DNA of 36,243 nucleotides from Ignavibacteriales bacterium. Lineage in GTDB: Bacteria > Bacteroidota > Ignavibacteria > Ignavibacteriales > Melioribacteraceae. The notes beneath the pieces are model-generated. The model did no database searches and was not told the DNA's origin. It saw only the letters and a program-made list of their open reading frames with translations. The position numbers were made by a program, and so were the translations under genes. Positions 8,887-17,932 of the stretch are shown here, in pieces. The DNA lies in the NCBI GenBank assembly GCA_016234355.1, contig JACRFC010000051.1:1-36243 (forward strand). The letters are read 5' to 3'. Position 1 is the stretch's first letter, and every line of letters starts with the position of its first letter.

Positions 8887-9783
8887 ATGACCAAAGTCTT
8901 AGATGAAAAAATTTCACGCCGCTCTTTCTTTACAAAGACTGGCGGCGCAGTTGCCGGTACAGCGGCAGCTTCAATGGTTATCTCTACGGTTCTCAATTAT
9001 AAGGGAACTCTTGCTAAGCCGGCTGTTGTAGCAGAAACAAACGAGACGCTCACAATGCTTTCCGAATTAAAAGAAGCATTGAAGAAATCAATCGAAAAAA
9101 GAAAATGGGCAATGGTTATTGATACGCGCAAATGTATTGGCTGCAGCGGATGCACAGTTGCATGTATTGCACAAAACAATTTGCCTCCCGGTGTTACATA
9201 TCGGGTCGTTCACGAAGTTGAAGATGGCGAATACCCGGATCTGAAACGTTTCTTTATGCCCACGAACTGTATGCAGTGCGAAAAACCAACTTGCGTTGAT
9301 GCTGCAAATAAAATTATTCCCGGTTCTATGAGCATTCGTCCCGATGGAATTGTTACAATTGATTATAAAAAGATGAAAGGCAAAAAAGTATTTCAAGCAG
9401 CTAAGAAAGCCTGTCCTTACTCAAATGCTCTTTATTATGATGAGGGGAAAAACTACACGGATAATACGCCGGCAATCCAACCGTATGAAAAAATGAAATC
9501 CAAAGAATACAAAAAAGAGTTCAGCAGAAAAGAAACAAAAGACGCTACAAGAAAATGCCATTTCTGTCTTGATAGAATTGAAAACGGTATGCTTCCGGCA
9601 TGTGTTTCTACTTGCACCGGACAAGCAATGTATTTTGGAGACGCTAACAATCCGGCGAGCATCGTATCAAAATACATTAAATCGAAGCAGAGTTTTGTAT
9701 TAAATGCAGGTGCCAAAACTTCGCCGGCTGTCAGGTTTGTTCATGACAACCTGGATGAAACATGTCTCAAATGCCACGAATAG
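8887..9783 (+). CDS. Tat-exported 4x[4Fe-4S] electron-transfer subunit (PsrB/TtrB/ArrB type)
   Basis: A 298-residue periplasmic electron carrier. The N-terminus has a twin-arginine signal (SRRSFFTK followed by a hydrophobic alanine-rich stretch to about residue 35). The mature part holds the four cysteine groups of DMSO-reductase-family B subunits: CIGCSGCTVAC, then CMQCEKPTC, the single-cluster region around KKACPYSN, and KCHFCLDRIENGMLPACVSTC. An extra CLKC pair occurs four residues from the end. The family passes electrons between a quinol-oxidising membrane subunit and the molybdopterin subunit. The catalytic gene starts 11 bp downstream, so the two form one complex. No NrfD-like or cytochrome membrane partner is encoded next to it. 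GTTTAGGAG precedes the ATG. Confidence 0.9.
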   Translation: MTKVLDEKISRRSFFTKTGGAVAGTAAASMVISTVLNYKGTLAKPAVVAETNETLTMLSELKEALKKSIEKRKWAMVIDTRKCIGCSGCTVACIAQNNLPPGVTYRVVHEVEDGEYPDLKRFFMPTNCMQCEKPTCVDAANKIIPGSMSIRPDGIVTIDYKKMKGKKVFQAAKKACPYSNALYYDEGKNYTDNTPAIQPYEKMKSKEYKKEFSRKETKDATRKCHFCLDRIENGMLPACVSTCTGQAMYFGDANNPASIVSKYIKSKQSFVLNAGAKTSPAVRFVHDNLDETCLKCHE

Positions 9784-9794
9784 GAGTAAAGAAA

Positions 9795-12700
9795 ATGAAA
9801 AATGAAAACGAAAAAATAGAAACTGGAAATAATCGCAGAGAATTTTTGAAGACCACTGCACTCCTTGGCGGCGGCGCAGTTGTGTTAAGCCAATTTAGCT
9901 GGGCGCAAAATTTAATTGCAAAGGCAAATACAGGATCACTGACACCGGCAGAAGCTTCTCAGCTTTCATTAGCCGAAAATATCGTTCACTCCGTTTGTCT
10001 TCAATGCAATACAGGCTGCGGAATAAAAGTAAAATTGCTTGACGGCGTTGCTGTTAAGATTGAAGGTAATCCATACAGCCCGTGGACAATGGTACCAAGC
10101 ATACCATTTAAAACTCCCCTTAGCGAATCTGCTAACATTGACGGCTCTTTGTGCCCTAAAGGTCAAGCTGGTTTACAGACAACTTATGACCCATACAGAA
10201 TTGTAAAAGTTCTTAAGCGCGATGGAAAAAGAGGCGAGAAGAAATGGAAAGCGATTTCTTTTGAACAGGCAGTAACAGAAATTGTTAATGGTGGAAAACT
10301 TTTTAGTAATGTAAAAGGCGAAGAAAACAGAACTGTTGAAGGATTGAAAAGTCTCTTTGCTTTGAAAGACCTTAAAGTTGCTAAAGAAATGTCTGCCGCC
10401 GTTGATGAAATCCGAAAGAAAAAAACAGTTGAAGAAAAGAAAACCGCTGTAGAAGAATTCAAAAAGAAATTTGCACAGCATTTAGACACTATGATTGACG
10501 CCGAGCATCCGGATTTTGGACCAAAGAATAATCAGGTAAGTTTTGTATGGGGACGGCTCAAAGCAGGAAGAGCGGAATTTATTAAACGCTTCATCAGCGA
10601 ATCGTTCGGCTCTACTAACGCTCATGGTCATACAACCGTCTGCCAGGGTTCTCTTTACTTCACCGGCAAAGCGATGAGCGATCAGTTTGTTGAAGGTAAA
10701 CTTACCGGCGGTCAAAAATTCTACTGGCAGACAGATACGGGTAATGTAGAATTCTTGCTTGCAATCGGCTCTGCTTATATTGAAGGCGGATACGGACCAA
10801 CACATCATGCAAAAAAATTAATGAAGAATCTTGTTGACGGCAAATTAAAGATCGCAGTAGTTGATCCAAGATTTTCAAAGATTGCTTCCAAAGCATACAA
10901 GTGGATTCCGATAAAACCGGGAACAGACGCCGCTTTTGCTCTTGCAATGATCCGTTGGATTATCGAGAACAAAAAATTTGACGTGAAGTTCTTAGAGAGC
11001 GCAAACAAAGCCGCTGCTACAAAAGCGGGCGAACTATCATGGACAAATTCTTCATGGCTTGTAAAAGAAGACGGAAGTTTCTTACGCGCGTCCGAAATTA
11101 AATTAGCCGAAAAAGAAAAACGTCAGAACAAAGATGGCAAGGAATGGGAATTCGATCCTTTCGTTGTTCTCAGAAACGGGCAGCCGATTGCGTTCGATCC
11201 GAATGACGATAAGAATGCCGTTACCGGCGATCTTTTGGTTGATACAAAAATCGGAGAGTTCAAAGTTAAAACCGGTTTGCAATTAGTTTATGAATCAGCC
11301 GCAGTCAAAACTATTGAACAATGGGCTGATATATGCGGCATTGAAGCAAAGGATATTATTGAATTGGCAGTTGAGTTTACTTCGCACGGTAAGAAAGCAG
11401 TTGCAGATCCTCACCGCGGTGTTGCTCAACATACTAATGGTTTCTATAATGTTCTTGCTGTTTATACACTCAACGCTTTGATAGGAAACTGGGACTGGAA
11501 AGGCGGTTTGATCAAAGCAACTACATATTCTATTGACGGTTCCAAAGAAGGAAATCCATTTGTTTTTGGAAAGATGCATCCAAATAAAATTACTCCTTTA
11601 GGCATCAGCATAATTCGTCACGATGTTAAGTATGAAGAATCAACTATCTTTTCCGGTTATCCGGCAAAGAGACAGTGGTACCCATTTGCAAGCGATATTT
11701 ATGAAGAGATAATTCCTTCGATGGCAGATGCATATCCTTATCCATCAAAAGTTCTCTTCACATATATGGCAGCAGCGCCTTATTCATTACCGGGAGGACA
11801 AACGAACATCGAAATATTGACTAACCTGGATAAGGTTTCTCTTTACATTGCTAACGATATTACAATCGGTGAAATGTCTATGTATGCAGATTACATTTTC
11901 CCGGATGTCACTTATTTAGAAAGATGGGAATTCCACGGAAGTCATCCGAGCATTCCGCAAAAAGTTCAGCCCGTTAGAAATCCTGTTATTGCACCATTAA
12001 CAACAACGGCAAAAGTATTTGGTGAAGAACAGCCGCTTACACTTGAAACAATGATTTTAGGTATTGCTGAAAAACTAAACTTGCCCGGTTTTGGAAAAGA
12101 TGGATTAGGCAAAGACCGTAATTTCTACCGTGCAGAAGATTTCTACCTGCCAATGGTTGCTAATATTGCTGCCGGCGATAAACCCGGCGATGAAGTTCCG
12201 GATGCAACCGACGAAGAGTTGAAAATATTTGAAGCGGCAAGAAAACATTTACCTAAAACTGTCTTTGATGTTCAACGATGGAAAGCTATTGTAGGCGAAC
12301 AGTGGTGGAAGAAAGTTGTATTTGTAATGAATCGCGGCGGACGTTTCCAGGATTACGAGAAAGCTTTTGAAGGCGAAAAATTCAAAAATAAATATGGTCA
12401 ATTGATCAACGTTTATTTAGAGAAGTATGTTAAATCAAAATCCGCAATTACTGGTAAAAAATTAGCCGGTATTGCTTCCTACTTTCCAATTGCAGATGTA
12501 ACCGGAAAAGAAGTGAATGACGAACCGGATGGTTTTAAACTCCATATGATTACATTCAGAGATATCACACAAACAAAGAGCCGTACAATAGTTGATTATT
12601 GGTTGAGCGCTATCCGTCCGGAAAATTTTGTGATGATAAATTCAGCCGATGCTAAGCAGTATGGATTCAAAGAAGGCGATAAGGTGAAGTTTACTTCTAA

Positions 12701-13010
12701 GTCTAATCCCGAAGGTGTTTGGGATTTGAAGAATGGAATAAAGAAACCGATGATTGGTAAAGTAAAAGTGGTTGAAGGAATTCGTCCCGGCATAATCGGA
12801 TTTTCGCTCGGACACGGTCACTGGGCTAATGGTTCTTCTGATGTTATTATAGACGGAAAGAAGATTAAAGGCGATCCGCGCCGTGCAACAGGTGTTCATG
12901 CAAATGCCGCAATGCGGCTTGATGATTATCTCAAAAATACTTGTCTGCTGGATCCAGTTGGCGGAAGCGTTTCATTCTATGATACAAAAGTAAAATTGAC
13001 TAAAGTATAA
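9795..13010 (+). CDS. Tat-exported molybdopterin oxidoreductase catalytic subunit (DMSO reductase family), substrate unknown
   Basis: A 1071-residue periplasmic enzyme. Start ATG 9795 follows TAGGAG and yields the Tat signal RREFLKTTALLGGGAVV (residues 14-30, then S-W-A-Q). The [4Fe-4S] site is Cys68-x2-Cys71-x3-Cys75 and Cys120 (LCPKG). The likely Mo/W ligand is Cys283 in FGSTNAHGHTTVCQGS, so this belongs with the Cys-ligated, periplasmic arsenate/tetrathionate/polysulfide/selenate-type branch, not with Ser-ligated DMSO reductases. It is longer than ArrA or PsrA and closer in size to TtrA or selenate reductase SrrA. A Lys/Glu-rich helical insert lies at about 172-235. The C-terminal bis-MGD cap contains PENFVMINSADA and GHGHWANGSSDV. 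Neighbours (PhnD-like sensor, porin, Moco genes) suggest oxyanion respiration; tetrathionate, arsenate, selenate or another compound cannot be separated from sequence alone. Confidence 0.88.
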   Translation: MKNENEKIETGNNRREFLKTTALLGGGAVVLSQFSWAQNLIAKANTGSLTPAEASQLSLAENIVHSVCLQCNTGCGIKVKLLDGVAVKIEGNPYSPWTMVPSIPFKTPLSESANIDGSLCPKGQAGLQTTYDPYRIVKVLKRDGKRGEKKWKAISFEQAVTEIVNGGKLFSNVKGEENRTVEGLKSLFALKDLKVAKEMSAAVDEIRKKKTVEEKKTAVEEFKKKFAQHLDTMIDAEHPDFGPKNNQVSFVWGRLKAGRAEFIKRFISESFGSTNAHGHTTVCQGSLYFTGKAMSDQFVEGKLTGGQKFYWQTDTGNVEFLLAIGSAYIEGGYGPTHHAKKLMKNLVDGKLKIAVVDPRFSKIASKAYKWIPIKPGTDAAFALAMIRWIIENKKFDVKFLESANKAAATKAGELSWTNSSWLVKEDGSFLRASEIKLAEKEKRQNKDGKEWEFDPFVVLRNGQPIAFDPNDDKNAVTGDLLVDTKIGEFKVKTGLQLVYESAAVKTIEQWADICGIEAKDIIELAVEFTSHGKKAVADPHRGVAQHTNGFYNVLAVYTLNALIGNWDWKGGLIKATTYSIDGSKEGNPFVFGKMHPNKITPLGISIIRHDVKYEESTIFSGYPAKRQWYPFASDIYEEIIPSMADAYPYPSKVLFTYMAAAPYSLPGGQTNIEILTNLDKVSLYIANDITIGEMSMYADYIFPDVTYLERWEFHGSHPSIPQKVQPVRNPVIAPLTTTAKVFGEEQPLTLETMILGIAEKLNLPGFGKDGLGKDRNFYRAEDFYLPMVANIAAGDKPGDEVPDATDEELKIFEAARKHLPKTVFDVQRWKAIVGEQWWKKVVFVMNRGGRFQDYEKAFEGEKFKNKYGQLINVYLEKYVKSKSAITGKKLAGIASYFPIADVTGKEVNDEPDGFKLHMITFRDITQTKSRTIVDYWLSAIRPENFVMINSADAKQYGFKEGDKVKFTSKSNPEGVWDLKNGIKKPMIGKVKVVEGIRPGIIGFSLGHGHWANGSSDVIIDGKKIKGDPRRATGVHANAAMRLDDYLKNTCLLDPVGGSVSFYDTKVKLTKV

Positions 13011-13025: not shown

Positions 13026-13039
13026 TTCTTTAAAATATT

Positions 13040-13138
13040 TTCTCCGAGTTGTTGAGTCTAAGTTCGTAAAGAATACGACTCTTCAACCGATAGGGTAAGT
13101 TTGGAAACGAATTTACCTGCCAACTTTGCAAAGGAGAG
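13040..13138 (+). ncRNA. Moco/Tuco riboswitch aptamer
   Basis: The leader folds as follows. P1: TTCTCC (13040-13045) with GGAGAG (13133-13138). P2: AGTTG (13047-13051) with CAACT (13121-13125). A further stem: GAGTC (13054-13058) with GACTC (13077-13081). It encloses TCGTAAAGA (13064-13072). A 10-bp hairpin follows at 13094-13117, capped by a GAAA tetraloop, and then GCAAAGGAG (13128-13136). The E. coli moaA leader, as I recall it, has the same order: CACC...GGTG closing stem, TCGTAAAGA, a GNRA-capped hairpin, and GGAAAGGTG at the 3' end, with the same number of bases between the hairpin and that end. The short region around TCGTAAAGA, without a long extra stem, resembles variants proposed to sense the tungsten cofactor. 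The genes downstream are moaA, moaC, moeA and mobA, which is exactly the expected regulon. Confidence 0.78.
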
Positions 13139-13150
13139 TTTTTAAGATAT

Positions 13151-13210
13151 GAGATGATTGGAAAGAATCATCTCTATAATAAACCCCGCAATGCAAAGCG
13201 GGGTTTTTTT
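13151..13210 (+). terminator. Expression platform: 9-bp hairpin and intrinsic terminator after the riboswitch
   Basis: A perfect 9-bp hairpin GAGATGATT (13151-13159) / AATCATCTC (13166-13174) is followed by AAACCCCGC (13181-13189) / GCGGGGTTT (13198-13206) and a seven-T run (13204-13210). This is a strong rho-independent terminator between the aptamer and the first gene of the operon. It fits control by transcription termination; it would also end read-through from the oxidoreductase operon. Confidence 0.85.
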
Positions 13211-13278: not shown

Positions 13279-13593
13279 ATGTCACAAATACCAAAACGAT
13301 TTCAAAAGTTTACTGAAGACTATCCGCAAGTTGCAAAAGCATACGAAGAACTTGGCGATGCTGTTCACTCTGCAGGACCGCTTGATGATAAAACAAGAGC
13401 GTTGATAAAACTTGCAATTTCAACCGGCGCGAGATTGGAAGGCGCTGTTCACTCTCATGCCCGCAAAGCATTGAAAGCAGGAGTAACAAAAGAAGAGATG
13501 CGCCATGCCGTTTTGTTAGCGCTGCCAACAATCGGATTGCCTTCTATGATGGCAGCAATGACCTGGATTGATGATATAATTGGAGAGGAGTAA
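13279..13593 (+). CDS. AhpD-fold / carboxymuconolactone decarboxylase family protein without redox cysteines
   Basis: A 104-residue all-helical protein of the CMD/AhpD family. The family core is visible as KTRALIKLAISTGARLEGAVHSHARKAL and then GVTKEEMRHAVLLALPTIG. In redox-active AhpD members the centre carries E-x-C-x2-C or C-x2-H; here the region reads EGAVHSHARK with no cysteine anywhere in the protein, so a peroxidase-type thiol role is unlikely. ATAGGAG precedes ATG 13279. It is the first gene after the Moco riboswitch terminator and its stop overlaps the next start (TAATG). A structural, binding or small-molecule hydrolase/decarboxylase role linked to molybdenum enzymes is possible; the function is unknown. 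Confidence 0.8.
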   Translation: MSQIPKRFQKFTEDYPQVAKAYEELGDAVHSAGPLDDKTRALIKLAISTGARLEGAVHSHARKALKAGVTKEEMRHAVLLALPTIGLPSMMAAMTWIDDIIGEE

Positions 13594-14117
13594 TGTTTGG
13601 AATCCTGCTTAAACTTTTTTTATCGTTTCTAAAAGTAGGTTCTTTTTCTTTCGGCGGAGCTTATTCTTTAATTCCTTTGATTGAAAAGGAAGTGGTTGCA
13701 AACCACAGTTGGCTTACACATGATGAATTCCTAAAAGTTCTTGGAATGGTTGAAGTTTTTCCAGGTGCAATTTCAATAAAATTTGCTACGTATACCGGAT
13801 TCAAAATTGGCGGTGTGTTTGGCGCCATTGCCGCAAATATTGGGAATATGATAATGCCGGTGAGCATTATTATGCTTGCGACTTACTTCAGCGTTCACCT
13901 TGAAAAGAACATCCAATTCCAAAAAGCAGTTACCGGAATAAAATTTGCAATAGTAGGAATGATTGCGGCTATAATGTATCAATATGCAGTTAAAAATTAT
14001 CTAGAGTGGAAGAGCGTGATTTTTTTGCTGCTCGGCGCTACTCTCATTATTGCATTTAAATTACACCCGGCGTATGTAGTAATCATAGCCGGGATCATTG
14101 CTGTATTCATTTTATAA
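13593..14117 (+). CDS. Single-domain CHR-family (chromate-type) anion transporter
   Basis: A 174-residue inner-membrane protein that corresponds to one half of the classic ChrA transporter. The CHR signature is present at the N-terminus (FLKVGSFSFGGAYSLIPLIEKEV, then EVFPGAISIKFATYTG), followed by hydrophobic helices at about 80-100, 110-130, 135-150 and 155-173. CHR proteins move chromate and are thought to carry related oxyanions such as sulfate. Short CHR proteins usually occur as adjacent N/C pairs, but only one copy is present here. It sits between the AhpD-like gene (1-bp overlap) and moaA (11-bp gap), inside a Moco biosynthesis operon behind a Moco riboswitch. I infer that its cargo is molybdate or tungstate; no ModABC or TupABC genes are seen in the window. 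Confidence 0.82.
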   Translation: MFGILLKLFLSFLKVGSFSFGGAYSLIPLIEKEVVANHSWLTHDEFLKVLGMVEVFPGAISIKFATYTGFKIGGVFGAIAANIGNMIMPVSIIMLATYFSVHLEKNIQFQKAVTGIKFAIVGMIAAIMYQYAVKNYLEWKSVIFLLLGATLIIAFKLHPAYVVIIAGIIAVFIL

Positions 14118-14128
14118 TTCTTACAATT

Positions 14129-15127
14129 ATGCAAACAAAAGATAAATTTGGAAGAACTCACGATTATTTAAGAATTTCCCTAACGGATAAGTGTAATCTC
14201 AACTGTAGTTATTGTAATCCGGTAATTTCGGAAAGGGAATTAAACAAAGAAGAAATTCTAAGTTACGAGGAGCTGTTAAGATTAATTAAGATTTTTGTTG
14301 TTAACCTAAGTTATAAGAAAATTCGTTTAACTGGCGGCGAACCGTTGGTAAGAAAAAACATTCTAACATTTTTCGAGTCTCTTCATAAAATTAAAAACGA
14401 GTACCCATTTGAACTTTGTTTGACAACAAACGGTACTTTACTCGAAGACAAAATTGAAAAGCTTAAGGAATTCGGACTCGATAAAATTAACATCAGCTTA
14501 GATTCTCTCCGTCCCGAATGGTTTTTTTCTATTACCGGCAAAGATAATTTCCATTCAGTGTTACGCTCGATTGATAAAGCTGAGTCTCTCGGTTTTTCTC
14601 CGGTTAAAATAAATACTGTAGTTATGAGAGGTATCAATGATGACGAAGTTATTGATTTTGTGGAATTTGCTAAGGGTAGAAATCTCAACGTGCGCTTTAT
14701 AGAATTTATGCCCTTCAGCAATAATAGCTGGAATGAAAACATTTTCATCAGCAATAGTGAAATCTTAAAAGCAATCCAGACGAAATATAGACTAGAAGAA
14801 ATAGATAAGAGCGTGGAAAAAGTCGCTAAAGATTTTAGAATTATCGGTCATAAAGGGAAAGTCAGTTTCATCAGCTCAATATCGGATCATTTTTGTCAGT
14901 CTTGTAATAGGTTGAGAATTACAGCAAAAGGGAATTTAAAGCTTTGCCTCTTTTCTCAGATTGACAGCGAGCTTTCTTTAATATCGTTATTGCGTAATTC
15001 ATTGTTTTCGGATGATGCAATTGCATCCCGGATTGCCGTCCACTTGCATATGAAAAAATATAATCATCCGGATATTGACGAGTTAATTACTTTGCAAAAC
15101 AATAATATGCTAAGCATTGGCGGATGA
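14129..15127 (+). CDS. moaA: GTP 3',8-cyclase MoaA (first step of Moco synthesis)
   Basis: A 332-residue radical SAM enzyme that rearranges GTP to 3',8-cyclo-7,8-dihydro-GTP. The N-terminal [4Fe-4S] motif is CNLNCSYC (about residues 22-29); the SAM-binding TGGEPL follows at about 68-73. The C-terminal second cluster is formed by C-x2-C-x13-C in CQSCNRLRITAKGNLKLC. The protein ends in the conserved Gly-Gly (LSIGG), required for MoaA activity. Length is normal. The gene lies 11 bp after the CHR transporter and is followed directly by moaC. No clear Shine-Dalgarno precedes ATG 14129, which suggests coupling to the upstream gene. Confidence 0.95.
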   Translation: MQTKDKFGRTHDYLRISLTDKCNLNCSYCNPVISERELNKEEILSYEELLRLIKIFVVNLSYKKIRLTGGEPLVRKNILTFFESLHKIKNEYPFELCLTTNGTLLEDKIEKLKEFGLDKINISLDSLRPEWFFSITGKDNFHSVLRSIDKAESLGFSPVKINTVVMRGINDDEVIDFVEFAKGRNLNVRFIEFMPFSNNSWNENIFISNSEILKAIQTKYRLEEIDKSVEKVAKDFRIIGHKGKVSFISSISDHFCQSCNRLRITAKGNLKLCLFSQIDSELSLISLLRNSLFSDDAIASRIAVHLHMKKYNHPDIDELITLQNNNMLSIGG

Positions 15128-15128
15128 T

Positions 15129-15602
15129 ATGAAAACTCTATCGCACGTAGATAAAAATGGTAAAGCAAATATGGTTGATGTGTCGGGTAAGGAGGTTACT
15201 GAACGAACTGCCTCGGCGTATTGCGAAGTTTTAGTTTCAGATGAAGTTTTCCGGAAAATAGAGCAGAATCAAATTGCCAAAGGAGATGTATTAACCGTTG
15301 CAAAGATTGCCGGAATACAAGCCGCGAAAAAAACTTCGGCTTTAATTCCTCTTTGTCATAATATCTTTATTTCAAAAATAGATGTAGAATTAAAATTGAA
15401 TAAGAAGAATAGTACTGTTGAGATAAAATCGTTCGCAAAAACTAATTCTGTTACCGGAATTGAGATGGAAGCATTAACAGCAGTTTCCGTTGCTGCGCTT
15501 ACTGTGTATGATATGTGCAAAGCGATTGACAAAGGAATTATCATTAATGAAATCAAGCTCTTAAGCAAAACCGGAGGAAAGAGTGGAAACTATAGAATAT
15601 AA
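15129..15602 (+). CDS. moaC: Cyclic pyranopterin monophosphate synthase MoaC
   Basis: A 157-residue cytoplasmic enzyme that converts the MoaA product to cPMP. Family signatures are MVDVSGKEVTERTA near the N-terminus, SALIPLCHNI at about 76-85, GIEMEALTAVSVAALTVYDM and the C-terminal LLSKTGGKSGNY. All expected active-site segments (the LCH and the K-A-I-D-K-G region) are present. I place the start at ATG 15129, one base after the moaA stop, with GGCGGA upstream; a TTG at 15117 in the same frame would add four residues. Its end overlaps the MOSC gene by 20 bp, so the genes are translationally coupled. Confidence 0.95.
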   Translation: MKTLSHVDKNGKANMVDVSGKEVTERTASAYCEVLVSDEVFRKIEQNQIAKGDVLTVAKIAGIQAAKKTSALIPLCHNIFISKIDVELKLNKKNSTVEIKSFAKTNSVTGIEMEALTAVSVAALTVYDMCKAIDKGIIINEIKLLSKTGGKSGNYRI

Positions 15603-16083
15603 AATCTGTGAGGATCAGTTTAATCCGTTAAATCCGCGTTCTATTGGAATTGGGAAAATTGTAGCAATCTCAATCAGCAAAAAGAAAGGCATTCCAAAAA
15701 CGAATGTTCAATTCGCACGATTGATTGAGAATCACGGAATTGAAGGTGATGTGCACGCCGGCAATTGGCATAGGCAAGTAAGTTTACTTGCGTTAGAGAG
15801 CATAGATAATATGCGCAAGAAAGGATTGTCACATCTTCGTCCCGGCGCTTTTGCGGAAAACATCACTACTGAGTTTATCAATCTGCCTCAATTAGAAATT
15901 GGTACAAAAATAAAAATCGGTAAAGAAGCCGAGCTTGAAGTAACACAAATCGGGAAGGAATGTCATTCCAAATGCGCAATATTTTTTAAGATCGGTGATT
16001 GCGTTATGCCGCGCGAAGGAATCTTTACCAAAGTAATTAAAAGCGGAGAATTTTTTGTCGGCGATGAATTTATTATAATGTAG
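15583..16083 (+). CDS. MOSC-domain protein with a repeat-derived N-terminus
   Basis: A 166-residue single-domain MOSC protein (sulfur-carrier domain found in Moco sulfurases and YiiM). The core starts at GIGKIVAISIS (about residue 21), followed by ENHGIEGDVHAGNWHRQVSLLA, RPGAFAENITTEF and the Cys-containing TQIGKECHSKC (Cys about 126 and 130), the likely sulfur-carrying region. The start is GTG 15583, fixed by GGAGG at 15573-15577. Residues 7-21 (ICEDQFNPLNPRSI) are encoded by a 43-bp repeat that also occurs in an intergenic region at 13215, so this N-terminal stretch is probably acquired, not ancestral. Role in Moco maturation or insertion is inferred from the operon. Confidence 0.88.
   Translation: METIEYKICEDQFNPLNPRSIGIGKIVAISISKKKGIPKTNVQFARLIENHGIEGDVHAGNWHRQVSLLALESIDNMRKKGLSHLRPGAFAENITTEFINLPQLEIGTKIKIGKEAELEVTQIGKECHSKCAIFFKIGDCVMPREGIFTKVIKSGEFFVGDEFIIM
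15603..15645 (+). repeat. 43-bp dispersed repeat, copy B, inside the MOSC reading frame
   Basis: From AATCTGTGAGGATC to GCGTTCTATT; gap-free match to copy A at 13215-13257, about 33 of 43 bases. It lies between the ribosome-proximal codons of the MOSC gene and its conserved domain, and adds about 14 residues in frame. Confidence 0.7.
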
Positions 16084-16124
16084 AATAAATTATTTAGCTA
16101 CGTAAAGTTTGTTTGGGAACGATT

Positions 16125-17327
16125 ATGATAGCATACAACGAAGCACTCGAACTAATTAAAAATGAAATTGAGAAATTAACTCTTTACAAAGAAGAAGTTG
16201 ACTTACTTGATTCTGTAAATCGCATATTGGCAGAAGATGTAATTGCTGATGTTGATATGCCGCCGTTTGATAATTCCGCAATGGATGGATACGCAATAAA
16301 ATTCAGTAAAAGAAAAAGCTGGAATATTATTGGAGAAGTATCTGCGGGTAACTTTTCTTCATTCTCAATTAAAGAAGAAGATGCTGTTCTGATAACCACC
16401 GGAAGCAAGATCCCACAAAGTGCTGACACAGTTGTTCCGGTGGAAGATGTTGTTGTAGAAGGTAAAAATCTTCTCTTGAAAGGGAAAACATTTCTGAAGA
16501 AAGGAATAAATATTCGGTTAAAAGGTAATGATATATCCAAAGGAAGAATTGCACTTAATAAATACACCAAGATAGATTCAAAAACAATTGCAGTGTTGGC
16601 AAGCTGTGGAAAAGAAAAAGTTAAAGTTTTCCCAAAACTTAAAGCAGCAATTCTTGCTACTGGCGATGAATTAGTTCCTATAACAAAAATACCATCTGGC
16701 GATAAAATTCGCACTTCTAATACTTATGCAATTTATGCTGCCGTAAAAGAAATGAATTATTCTCCGCTAATGCTTGGTTTCGTTAAAGACAATGAAGAAA
16801 TAATTCAGCAAAAAATTAAAGCTGCGTTCGGTATGAATATCAATACACTCATTACTACCGGCGGAGTGTCTGTTGGTAAATATGATTTTCTAAAAGAAAT
16901 ATTTGAAAAAGAAGGTGTGAAAGAAATATTCTGGAAGGTAAACATCAAACCCGGCAAACCATTTTACTTTGGTGTGTATGAAAAAAAAGCAAAAAAAATT
17001 CTCGTTTTTGGTTTGCCGGGCAACCCGGTTTCAGCGTTAGTGAATTTTTATGTCTTCATCAAACCAGCTATTAATAATATGTTTCATCAAAAACATATAA
17101 GCAGCATAACGGCTGTTCTTCAATGTGATTTGAAAAAGAAAGATAGCAAACGTCATTTCTTGCGCGGAATTCTTTACGAAGAAAATAGCGAGTGGAAAGT
17201 AACTTCAGGGTTTTCACAATCATCCGGCAACCTTGTTGAGATGAGCCGCGCTAATTGTTTAATCGAAATAGAAGAAGAAAGGAGAAATCCTCTCAAAGGA
17301 GAAAAGGTAAAATGTATTCTGATGTAA
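16125..17327 (+). CDS. moeA: Molybdopterin molybdenumtransferase MoeA
   Basis: A 400-residue enzyme that inserts molybdate into adenylylated molybdopterin. Domain order: N-terminal linker region with DVDMPPFDNSAMDGYA (about 43-58), SAG-type barrel with ITTGSKIPQSADTVVPVED, MogA-like domain with ILATGDELV and TTGGVSVGKYDF, the FGLPGNPVSALVNF segment, and a C-terminal beta domain. All hallmark loops are present. ATG 16125 is preferred to TTG 16113 because TTGGGAACG lies directly upstream and the family usually starts near ISYEEAL-like sequence (here IAYNEALELI). It overlaps mobA by 16 bp. No separate MogA/MoaB is seen in the window; the adenylylation step must be done elsewhere in the genome. 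Confidence 0.95.
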   Translation: MIAYNEALELIKNEIEKLTLYKEEVDLLDSVNRILAEDVIADVDMPPFDNSAMDGYAIKFSKRKSWNIIGEVSAGNFSSFSIKEEDAVLITTGSKIPQSADTVVPVEDVVVEGKNLLLKGKTFLKKGINIRLKGNDISKGRIALNKYTKIDSKTIAVLASCGKEKVKVFPKLKAAILATGDELVPITKIPSGDKIRTSNTYAIYAAVKEMNYSPLMLGFVKDNEEIIQQKIKAAFGMNINTLITTGGVSVGKYDFLKEIFEKEGVKEIFWKVNIKPGKPFYFGVYEKKAKKILVFGLPGNPVSALVNFYVFIKPAINNMFHQKHISSITAVLQCDLKKKDSKRHFLRGILYEENSEWKVTSGFSQSSGNLVEMSRANCLIEIEEERRNPLKGEKVKCILM

Positions 17328-17932
17328 CTGGAATTATATTGGCCGGCGGAAAAAGTTCCCGTATGGATGTGAACAAATCTTTTTTGAAATTAGGAAATCA
17401 AACCATTATTGAACGCATAACTGTTTTAATGAAATCCATTTTCAAAGAAGTAATTATAATAACCAACACACCGGCTGAATATGCGTTTCTTCAACTTCCT
17501 TTGTATGAAGATATCTTTAAAGGAAAAGGACCATTGGGAGGAATCCATTCGGGGTTAACATATTCAAAAACTGAAACGAATTTTGTTAGCTCATGTGATA
17601 TTCCGTTGATGACAAAAGAAATGATTGAGTATATCATTGAATATAAAAGTGACAAACCAATTAAGTTTTGTGAAGCCGCAGGTTATCATCAACCGTTAGC
17701 GGGCGTTTATGAAAAAAAAGTTATTGCTGAAATTGAAAAAGTAATAATTAACAATGATGAAACAATTGATAAATCTTTCCATCATTTTTTGAAAAGAGTG
17801 AATGCAGAGATCATTCATCCCGAAGAGTTACCTTTTTATAATGATGAGGTTTTTTTTAATATCAACACACCGGATGATTATAAACAAATATCTCAAAAAC
17901 GAAATTCATTTATGATAGACAAAACAAACTAA
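17312..17932 (+). CDS. mobA: Molybdenum cofactor guanylyltransferase MobA
   Basis: A 206-residue nucleotidyltransferase that adds GMP to Mo-molybdopterin, giving MGD, the cofactor form needed by the DMSO-reductase-family enzyme at 9795. The GTP-binding loop is ILAGGKSSRMDVNKS (about residues 9-23), with GPLGGIHSGL at about 71-80, the catalytic-metal segment SSCDIPLM at about 91-98, and the C-terminal FFNINTPDDY. ATG 17312, inside the end of moeA and preceded by AAAGGAGAAAAGG, gives the standard N-terminus; earlier in-frame codons would add an arginine-rich leader with no homology. It is the last intact gene of the Moco operon. Confidence 0.94.
   Translation: MYSDVTGIILAGGKSSRMDVNKSFLKLGNQTIIERITVLMKSIFKEVIIITNTPAEYAFLQLPLYEDIFKGKGPLGGIHSGLTYSKTETNFVSSCDIPLMTKEMIEYIIEYKSDKPIKFCEAAGYHQPLAGVYEKKVIAEIEKVIINNDETIDKSFHHFLKRVNAEIIHPEELPFYNDEVFFNINTPDDYKQISQKRNSFMIDKTN

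Follow-up and report, generated by a model that had tools for sequence, protein, structure and literature searches.

Why should a gene of the CHR superfamily be embedded in a Moco operon, and what might its product carry there? The question is raised by a stretch of 36,243 nucleotides (the window, meaning the whole of the DNA analysed) from an Ignavibacteriales bacterium whose genome is a 2.2 Mb MAG of 72.6% completeness. On the forward strand, a Moco riboswitch aptamer (13030-13152; RF01055, 84.8 bits by cmscan), with the P3 stem columns deleted in the alignment, is followed by an intrinsic terminator (13181-13210) consisting of AAACCCCGC..GCGGGGTTT with T7 (hairpin 13181-13206, T-run to 13210). 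The operon itself, on the same strand, begins with a gene for a CMD-domain protein of 104 aa that is kept in relatives (13279-13593; PF02627, E 2e-18), and continues with a single-domain CHR half-transporter of 174 aa, here called MoCHR, for which comparative evidence leads us to propose import of molybdate or tungstate (13593-14117; PF02417, E 3e-40). Next come moaA (14129-15127; PF04055 and PF06463, with 345 bits to TIGR02666), moaC (15129-15602; PF01967), a MOSC-domain protein gene (15583-16083; PF03473), moeA (16113-17327; PF03453, PF00994 and PF03454) and a mobA-like nucleotidyltransferase gene (17312-17932; PF12804, with NCBIfam MobA models matching below cut-off). A molybdopterin oxidoreductase gene (9762-13010, forward strand) lies 5' of the riboswitch and outside the operon; its nearest NCBIfam model is TtrA, with 491.6 bits, far below the cut-off of 1750.

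The initial annotation had set the CHR gene between the riboswitch terminator and moaA with junctions of 1 bp and 11 bp. The spacings and the order up to moaA stand, since the CHR start codon takes its A from the final base of the CMD gene and 11 bp separate CHR from moaA; as a minor correction, the direct 5' neighbour is the CMD gene and not the terminator. Co-regulation by a cofactor-sensing RNA, suggested in the same place, is supported by the aptamer and terminator 5' of CMD-CHR and by their recurrence in relatives described below.

MoCHR matches the Pfam domain Chromate_transp over positions 1-165 of 166 with 138.4 bits (cut-off 28.6), and this whole-domain match above the curated cut-off meets the criterion that we used for membership of the CHR superfamily. 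The likeness to that superfamily (ChrA, and paired SCHR proteins such as B. subtilis YwrA/YwrB) lies in the common domain family and in the short single-domain form of about 175 aa. Known CHR transporters have two halves, either fused as in ChrA or encoded as an adjacent SCHR pair, whereas no partner half for MoCHR was found in the window's MAG, in which 13593-14117 is the sole CHR gene detected. The absence of a partner, already proposed from the window alone, holds in the single-contig relatives G018, G045 and G047 (99% completeness), which carry exactly one CHR gene each. The protein does not reach the NCBIfam cut-offs for chromate efflux (93 versus 171.7 for TIGR00937, 80.4 versus 250 for NF053759 and 68.8 versus 250 for NF053760), and no homology to ModABC, WtpABC, TupABC or MOT1 was found, as Pfam gives PF02417 only and NCBIfam chromate models only. 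Judged by the models tested, MoCHR is a member of the CHR superfamily that falls outside the chromate efflux families.

The suggested phylogeny against ChrA agrees with this placement: proteins from the order and from Omnitrophota form a single clade (support 100/99), apart from ChrA N halves, ChrA C halves and paired halves. Every one of the 44 rows of the clade alignment has the lysines K63 and K71. The other CHR groups essentially lack K63 and have K71 only in part, and on this pattern of conservation we regard both as candidate anion ligands. The AlphaFold2 model, built from nine rows, is weak (pLDDT 76, pTM 0.56), and neither Foldseek with that model nor phmmer gave a meaningful PDB match.

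A search of 57 relatives separated close MoCHR homologues, at 58-68% identity, from distant CHR matches at 23-32% that are nearly all two-domain ChrA. With an alignment of 20 close homologues as query and a threshold of more than 200 bits, the MoCHR clade was found in 30 of 164 genomes of the order. MoaA, at 170 bits or more, is present in 57 of the 164, including all 30 with MoCHR (Fisher p = 2e-17, genomes treated as independent; the MoaA of G120 is counted from a contig-edge fragment). In 29 of these 30 genomes MoCHR directly precedes moaA and shares its strand, the G120 copy stopping at a contig edge, and such recurrence is far beyond chance. The usual gene order is riboswitch-CMD-CHR-moaA-moaC-MOSC-moeA-mobA, and a Moco riboswitch lies 5' of MoCHR in 24 of the 30, in one case under the gathering score. 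In G082 other genes, for DoxX and two hemerythrin-domain proteins (L152:5917-8090), intervene between the riboswitch and CMD-CHR-moaA. Elsewhere in the same phylum, outside the order, the search yielded paired CHR genes only.

Members of the clade recur in Omnitrophota, where 12 of 193 genomes have CHR genes above 180 bits. There CHR occupies the opposite (3') end of the operon, following mogA, so that the gene order differs from that in Ignavibacteriales. L053 reads moeA-mobA-moaA-moaC-MOSC-mogA-CHR; in L239 and L243 a Moco riboswitch precedes moaA..moaC-MOSC-mogA-CHR; L245 and L054 retain MOSC-mogA-CHR, L247 mogA-CHR, and in L248 CHR adjoins a weak MobB match. Recognised Moco neighbours were not found beside CHR in L240-L242, L244 and L246. 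Linkage to Moco genes across lineages is thus met by 29 of 30 genomes of the order and part of the Omnitrophota members, and the survey of neighbours called for at the outset gave Moco genes essentially always in the order and in part of the Omnitrophota. In L240 (7934-10025) and L241 (7059-9130) the clade genes adjoin weak PilX-like proteins.

Could this linkage be mere hitch-hiking, with MoCHR serving the upstream molybdopterin oxidoreductase, by carrying a substrate or product oxyanion, or serving the CMD partner? An oxidoreductase gene is often directly upstream, and CMD adjoins CHR in 29 of 30 genomes. The oxidoreductase is missing at several loci, however (for example L048, L066 and L067), the Omnitrophota CHR gene is at the other operon end beside mogA, and CMD and CHR come apart both ways: CMD stays beside moaA at loci without CHR or with a replacement for it (L158, L176-L180 and L184), and CHR occurs without CMD in L051/L065 and L053. 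We therefore consider hitch-hiking very improbable. The retention of CMD-moaA in the CHR-less operons of genus g40 also shows that CMD belongs with moaA and not with CHR. The cysteine-free CMD protein (13279-13593 in the window) is the first gene product of the order's Moco operons, and CMD is also found in one Omnitrophota Moco operon (L243).

The distribution of known Mo/W transporters is close to the complement of that of MoCHR. Among the 57 MoaA genomes, ModABC, WtpABC or MOT1 was found in one of 30 with MoCHR versus 22 of 27 without it (Fisher p = 8e-10, shared ancestry ignored). The complementary distribution expected of a class of Mo/W transporter is met, albeit with few independent contrasts: the MoaA tree provides only about three that are well supported, most in the predicted direction and none in reverse, too few for significance in a sign test that is underpowered. 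ModA and ModB exceed their cut-offs in 12 of 164 genomes, 11 of which carry MoaA, and WtpAB is present in 11 MoaA genomes of the order, its identity confirmed by NCBIfam in two and assigned in the other nine from the same ModA/ModB score pattern. True MOT1 occurs in only two genomes of the order, G151 and G036; SulP-length PF16983 matches (about 570 aa, close to the cut-off) were excluded. TupB gave no match in the 164 genomes other than cross-matches to ModB genes. The lack of a known Mo/W transporter, first remarked on for the window, extends to its MAG (72.6% complete), where no ModA, no ModB over cut-off, no TupB and no MOT1 were found, and to G018, G045 and G047, in whose single contigs (99% completeness) no known Mo/W system was detected. 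Neither of the two conditions set at the outset as refuting a Mo/W carrier, a canonical ModABC elsewhere in the genome or CHR neighbours in relatives unconnected with Moco, was borne out.

Genus g40 offers a close comparison. Five of its genomes (G052, G054, G056, G068 and G069) carry ModABC and have CMD and moaA adjacent without CHR; G073 has MoCHR and no ModABC was found in it; G074 has CMD-moaA without CHR, and no known transporter was found there either. G074 is one of five MoaA genomes out of 57 with neither MoCHR nor a known transporter; like G107 and G155 it is a MAG with completeness in the range 75-89%, and in G024 and G144 MoaA is under its cut-off. The sole genome with both MoCHR and ModABC is G080, a MAG in 390 contigs whose ModABC genes are on a contig of 3.8 kb. 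An ABC system of G110, initially Wtp-like in appearance, proved to be a sulfate system and was not counted. No linked receptor was found when L166 and L167, which encode ModA-like binding proteins without a permease, and the ModABC neighbours were scanned. Between WtpC and moeA in L163 (7423-8430) lies a gene for a 335-aa protein with no Pfam match, a homologue of which is found at L164:3049-4062 beside the Wtp/Moco cluster of G019.

A more direct indication of function comes from G151, whose operon reads riboswitch-CMD-MOT1-moaA-moaC-MOSC-moeA-mobA, with MOT1 (Pfam MFS_MOT1, PF16983) in the exact position of CHR. The MoaA of G151 nests among those of CHR operons, next to G016, and the DNA of the two loci is 82% identical over 6.8 kb to the end of CMD and 80% identical for another 3.8 kb beginning at moaA. 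The breakpoints are the end of CMD and the start of moaA, and the transporter gene alone differs. MOT1, at about 400 aa with two repeats, has no sequence relation to MoCHR; its occupation of the same place under the same control suggests that the two probably do the same job as single-gene transporters. In G036 another MOT1 gene is 3' of moaA behind a Moco riboswitch, in an operon without CHR. These genes (L184:4007-5197 and L072:8081-9181) are bacterial members of the MOT1 family inside riboswitch-controlled Moco operons; a 2018 survey lists MOT1 for eukaryotes only (PMC6147048).

Our preferred reading, to which we give a probability of roughly 0.8, is that MoCHR is a stand-alone and probably homo-oligomeric protein of the inner membrane that imports group-6 oxyanions (molybdate and/or tungstate); transport, its direction, the substrate, the oligomeric state and the coupling ion are all inferred. 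It would feed the Moco/Tuco pathway encoded in the same operon. The evidence fits a protein doing the job of ModABC, WtpABC or MOT1, and the suggestion that this CHR gene is a molybdate or tungstate carrier is well supported by MOT1 in the CHR position of G151 and by the CHR-less ModABC genomes of g40, with transport and metal remaining inferences. ModABC, WtpABC and TupABC, whose role MoCHR is proposed to share, are encoded by three genes and rely, as ABC transporters, on a binding protein and an ATPase, whereas MoCHR is one small membrane protein; Mod and Wtp are nearly mutually exclusive with it among the order's MoaA genomes. Counting against the importer reading are the several Omnitrophota clade members away from Moco genes, the presence of both systems in G080 and of neither in G074, and the chromate efflux for which the rest of the CHR family is known. 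Some MoCHR genomes could also take up molybdate via sulfate transporters, G110 having a sulfate ABC system.

Molybdopterin requires sulfur, and MoCHR might instead import sulfate or thiosulfate as its source, with Mo entering by leakage only. The sulfur of molybdopterin, however, derives from cysteine. The systems that replace MoCHR are those for Mo/W, not for sulfate, and G110 retains MoCHR despite its sulfate transporter. We attach very little credence to sulfate import, even though CHR proteins are believed to act on anions resembling sulfate, a view taken from the title of a 1998 paper by Nies et al. (cited in PMC8940164).

The direction of transport is best approached through the riboswitch. 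The window's RNA is a full match to the RF01055 aptamer with a terminator platform, placed ahead of Moco genes and transporters in the manner reported in 2008, and differs from the typical form in lacking P3. A GC-rich hairpin and T-run precede CMD after nearly every riboswitch examined, with a strong terminator at 20 or more loci. In the window CTTTGCA of the aptamer is complementary to the terminator segment TGCAAAG, and their pairing would form a candidate antiterminator (13060-13206). The terminator often carries a complement of the conserved aptamer segment CTTTGCAAAG, as for CGCTTTGCA with TGCAAAGCG, at some loci no better than chance, and in G122 and G123 both sides of the pairing have changed together (GCGAAG with CTTCGC). 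This complementarity and the paired changes suggest an antiterminator, in the absence of a formal test. When the cofactor is scarce, transcription would pass the terminator, so that the CHR protein, MoaA, MoaC, MOSC, MoeA and MobA would be made together; when it is plentiful the aptamer would close and transcription would end before CMD-CHR.

The contrary possibility is that MoCHR exports a toxic oxyanion, be it surplus molybdate or tungstate or a different one such as chromate, in a protective role like that of ChrA; characterised CHR proteins are indeed chromate efflux pumps, paired half-transporters included (PMC8940164). The studied E. coli Moco riboswitch represses when Moco is present (PMC2408646), and an exporter under such control would be silenced when Mo is high. 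Nor would export account for the replacement by MOT1 or for the loss of CHR where ModABC is present, and the scores of MoCHR are under the NCBIfam chromate efflux cut-offs. Repression of the E. coli member by Moco, together with the fact that MoCHR is replaced by uptake systems, leads us to favour uptake and to regard export as unlikely. As to the metal, P3 is missing from the window's aptamer and from most of those of its relatives, and P3-less Moco aptamers correlate with tungsten use (PMC2408646), which makes tungstate as good a candidate as molybdate.

In the 2018 survey no known Mo transporter was counted for 278 Mo-using bacteria and 13 archaea, and the existence of further uptake systems was suggested (PMC6147048); the MoCHR clade is a concrete and testable candidate for such organisms. 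Should it be an importer, the direction and substrate assumed for part of a family automatically annotated as chromate efflux would be reversed, and MoCHR would be among the smallest oxyanion importers. We advance only tentatively, at a little under even odds, the broader idea that single-gene, homo-oligomeric, non-ABC importers of group-6 oxyanions have arisen as a widespread class within the CHR superfamily, with tungstate as a main substrate in lineages with P3-less riboswitches; if true, this class would explain how some Mo/W-using bacteria manage without any known transporter. Neither a CHR gene under a Moco riboswitch nor a link between CHR proteins and molybdate uptake was found in the literature searched, subscription journals being mostly outside its scope.

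In five genomes a Moco riboswitch directly precedes a pair of small unknown genes and one for a TonB-dependent receptor (L068:3438-6671 in G044, L069:6342-9770 in G012, L070 in G021, L071 in G030 and L074 in G038). Neither MoaA over cut-off nor a known Mo transporter over cut-off was found in G044, G012, G021 and G030. Upstream in L069 and L071 are molybdopterin oxidoreductase genes, of NapA-like and DMSO-reductase-II type, and it is possible that these riboswitch-receptor loci serve outer-membrane uptake of the cofactor, of molybdopterin or of a Mo/W chelate.
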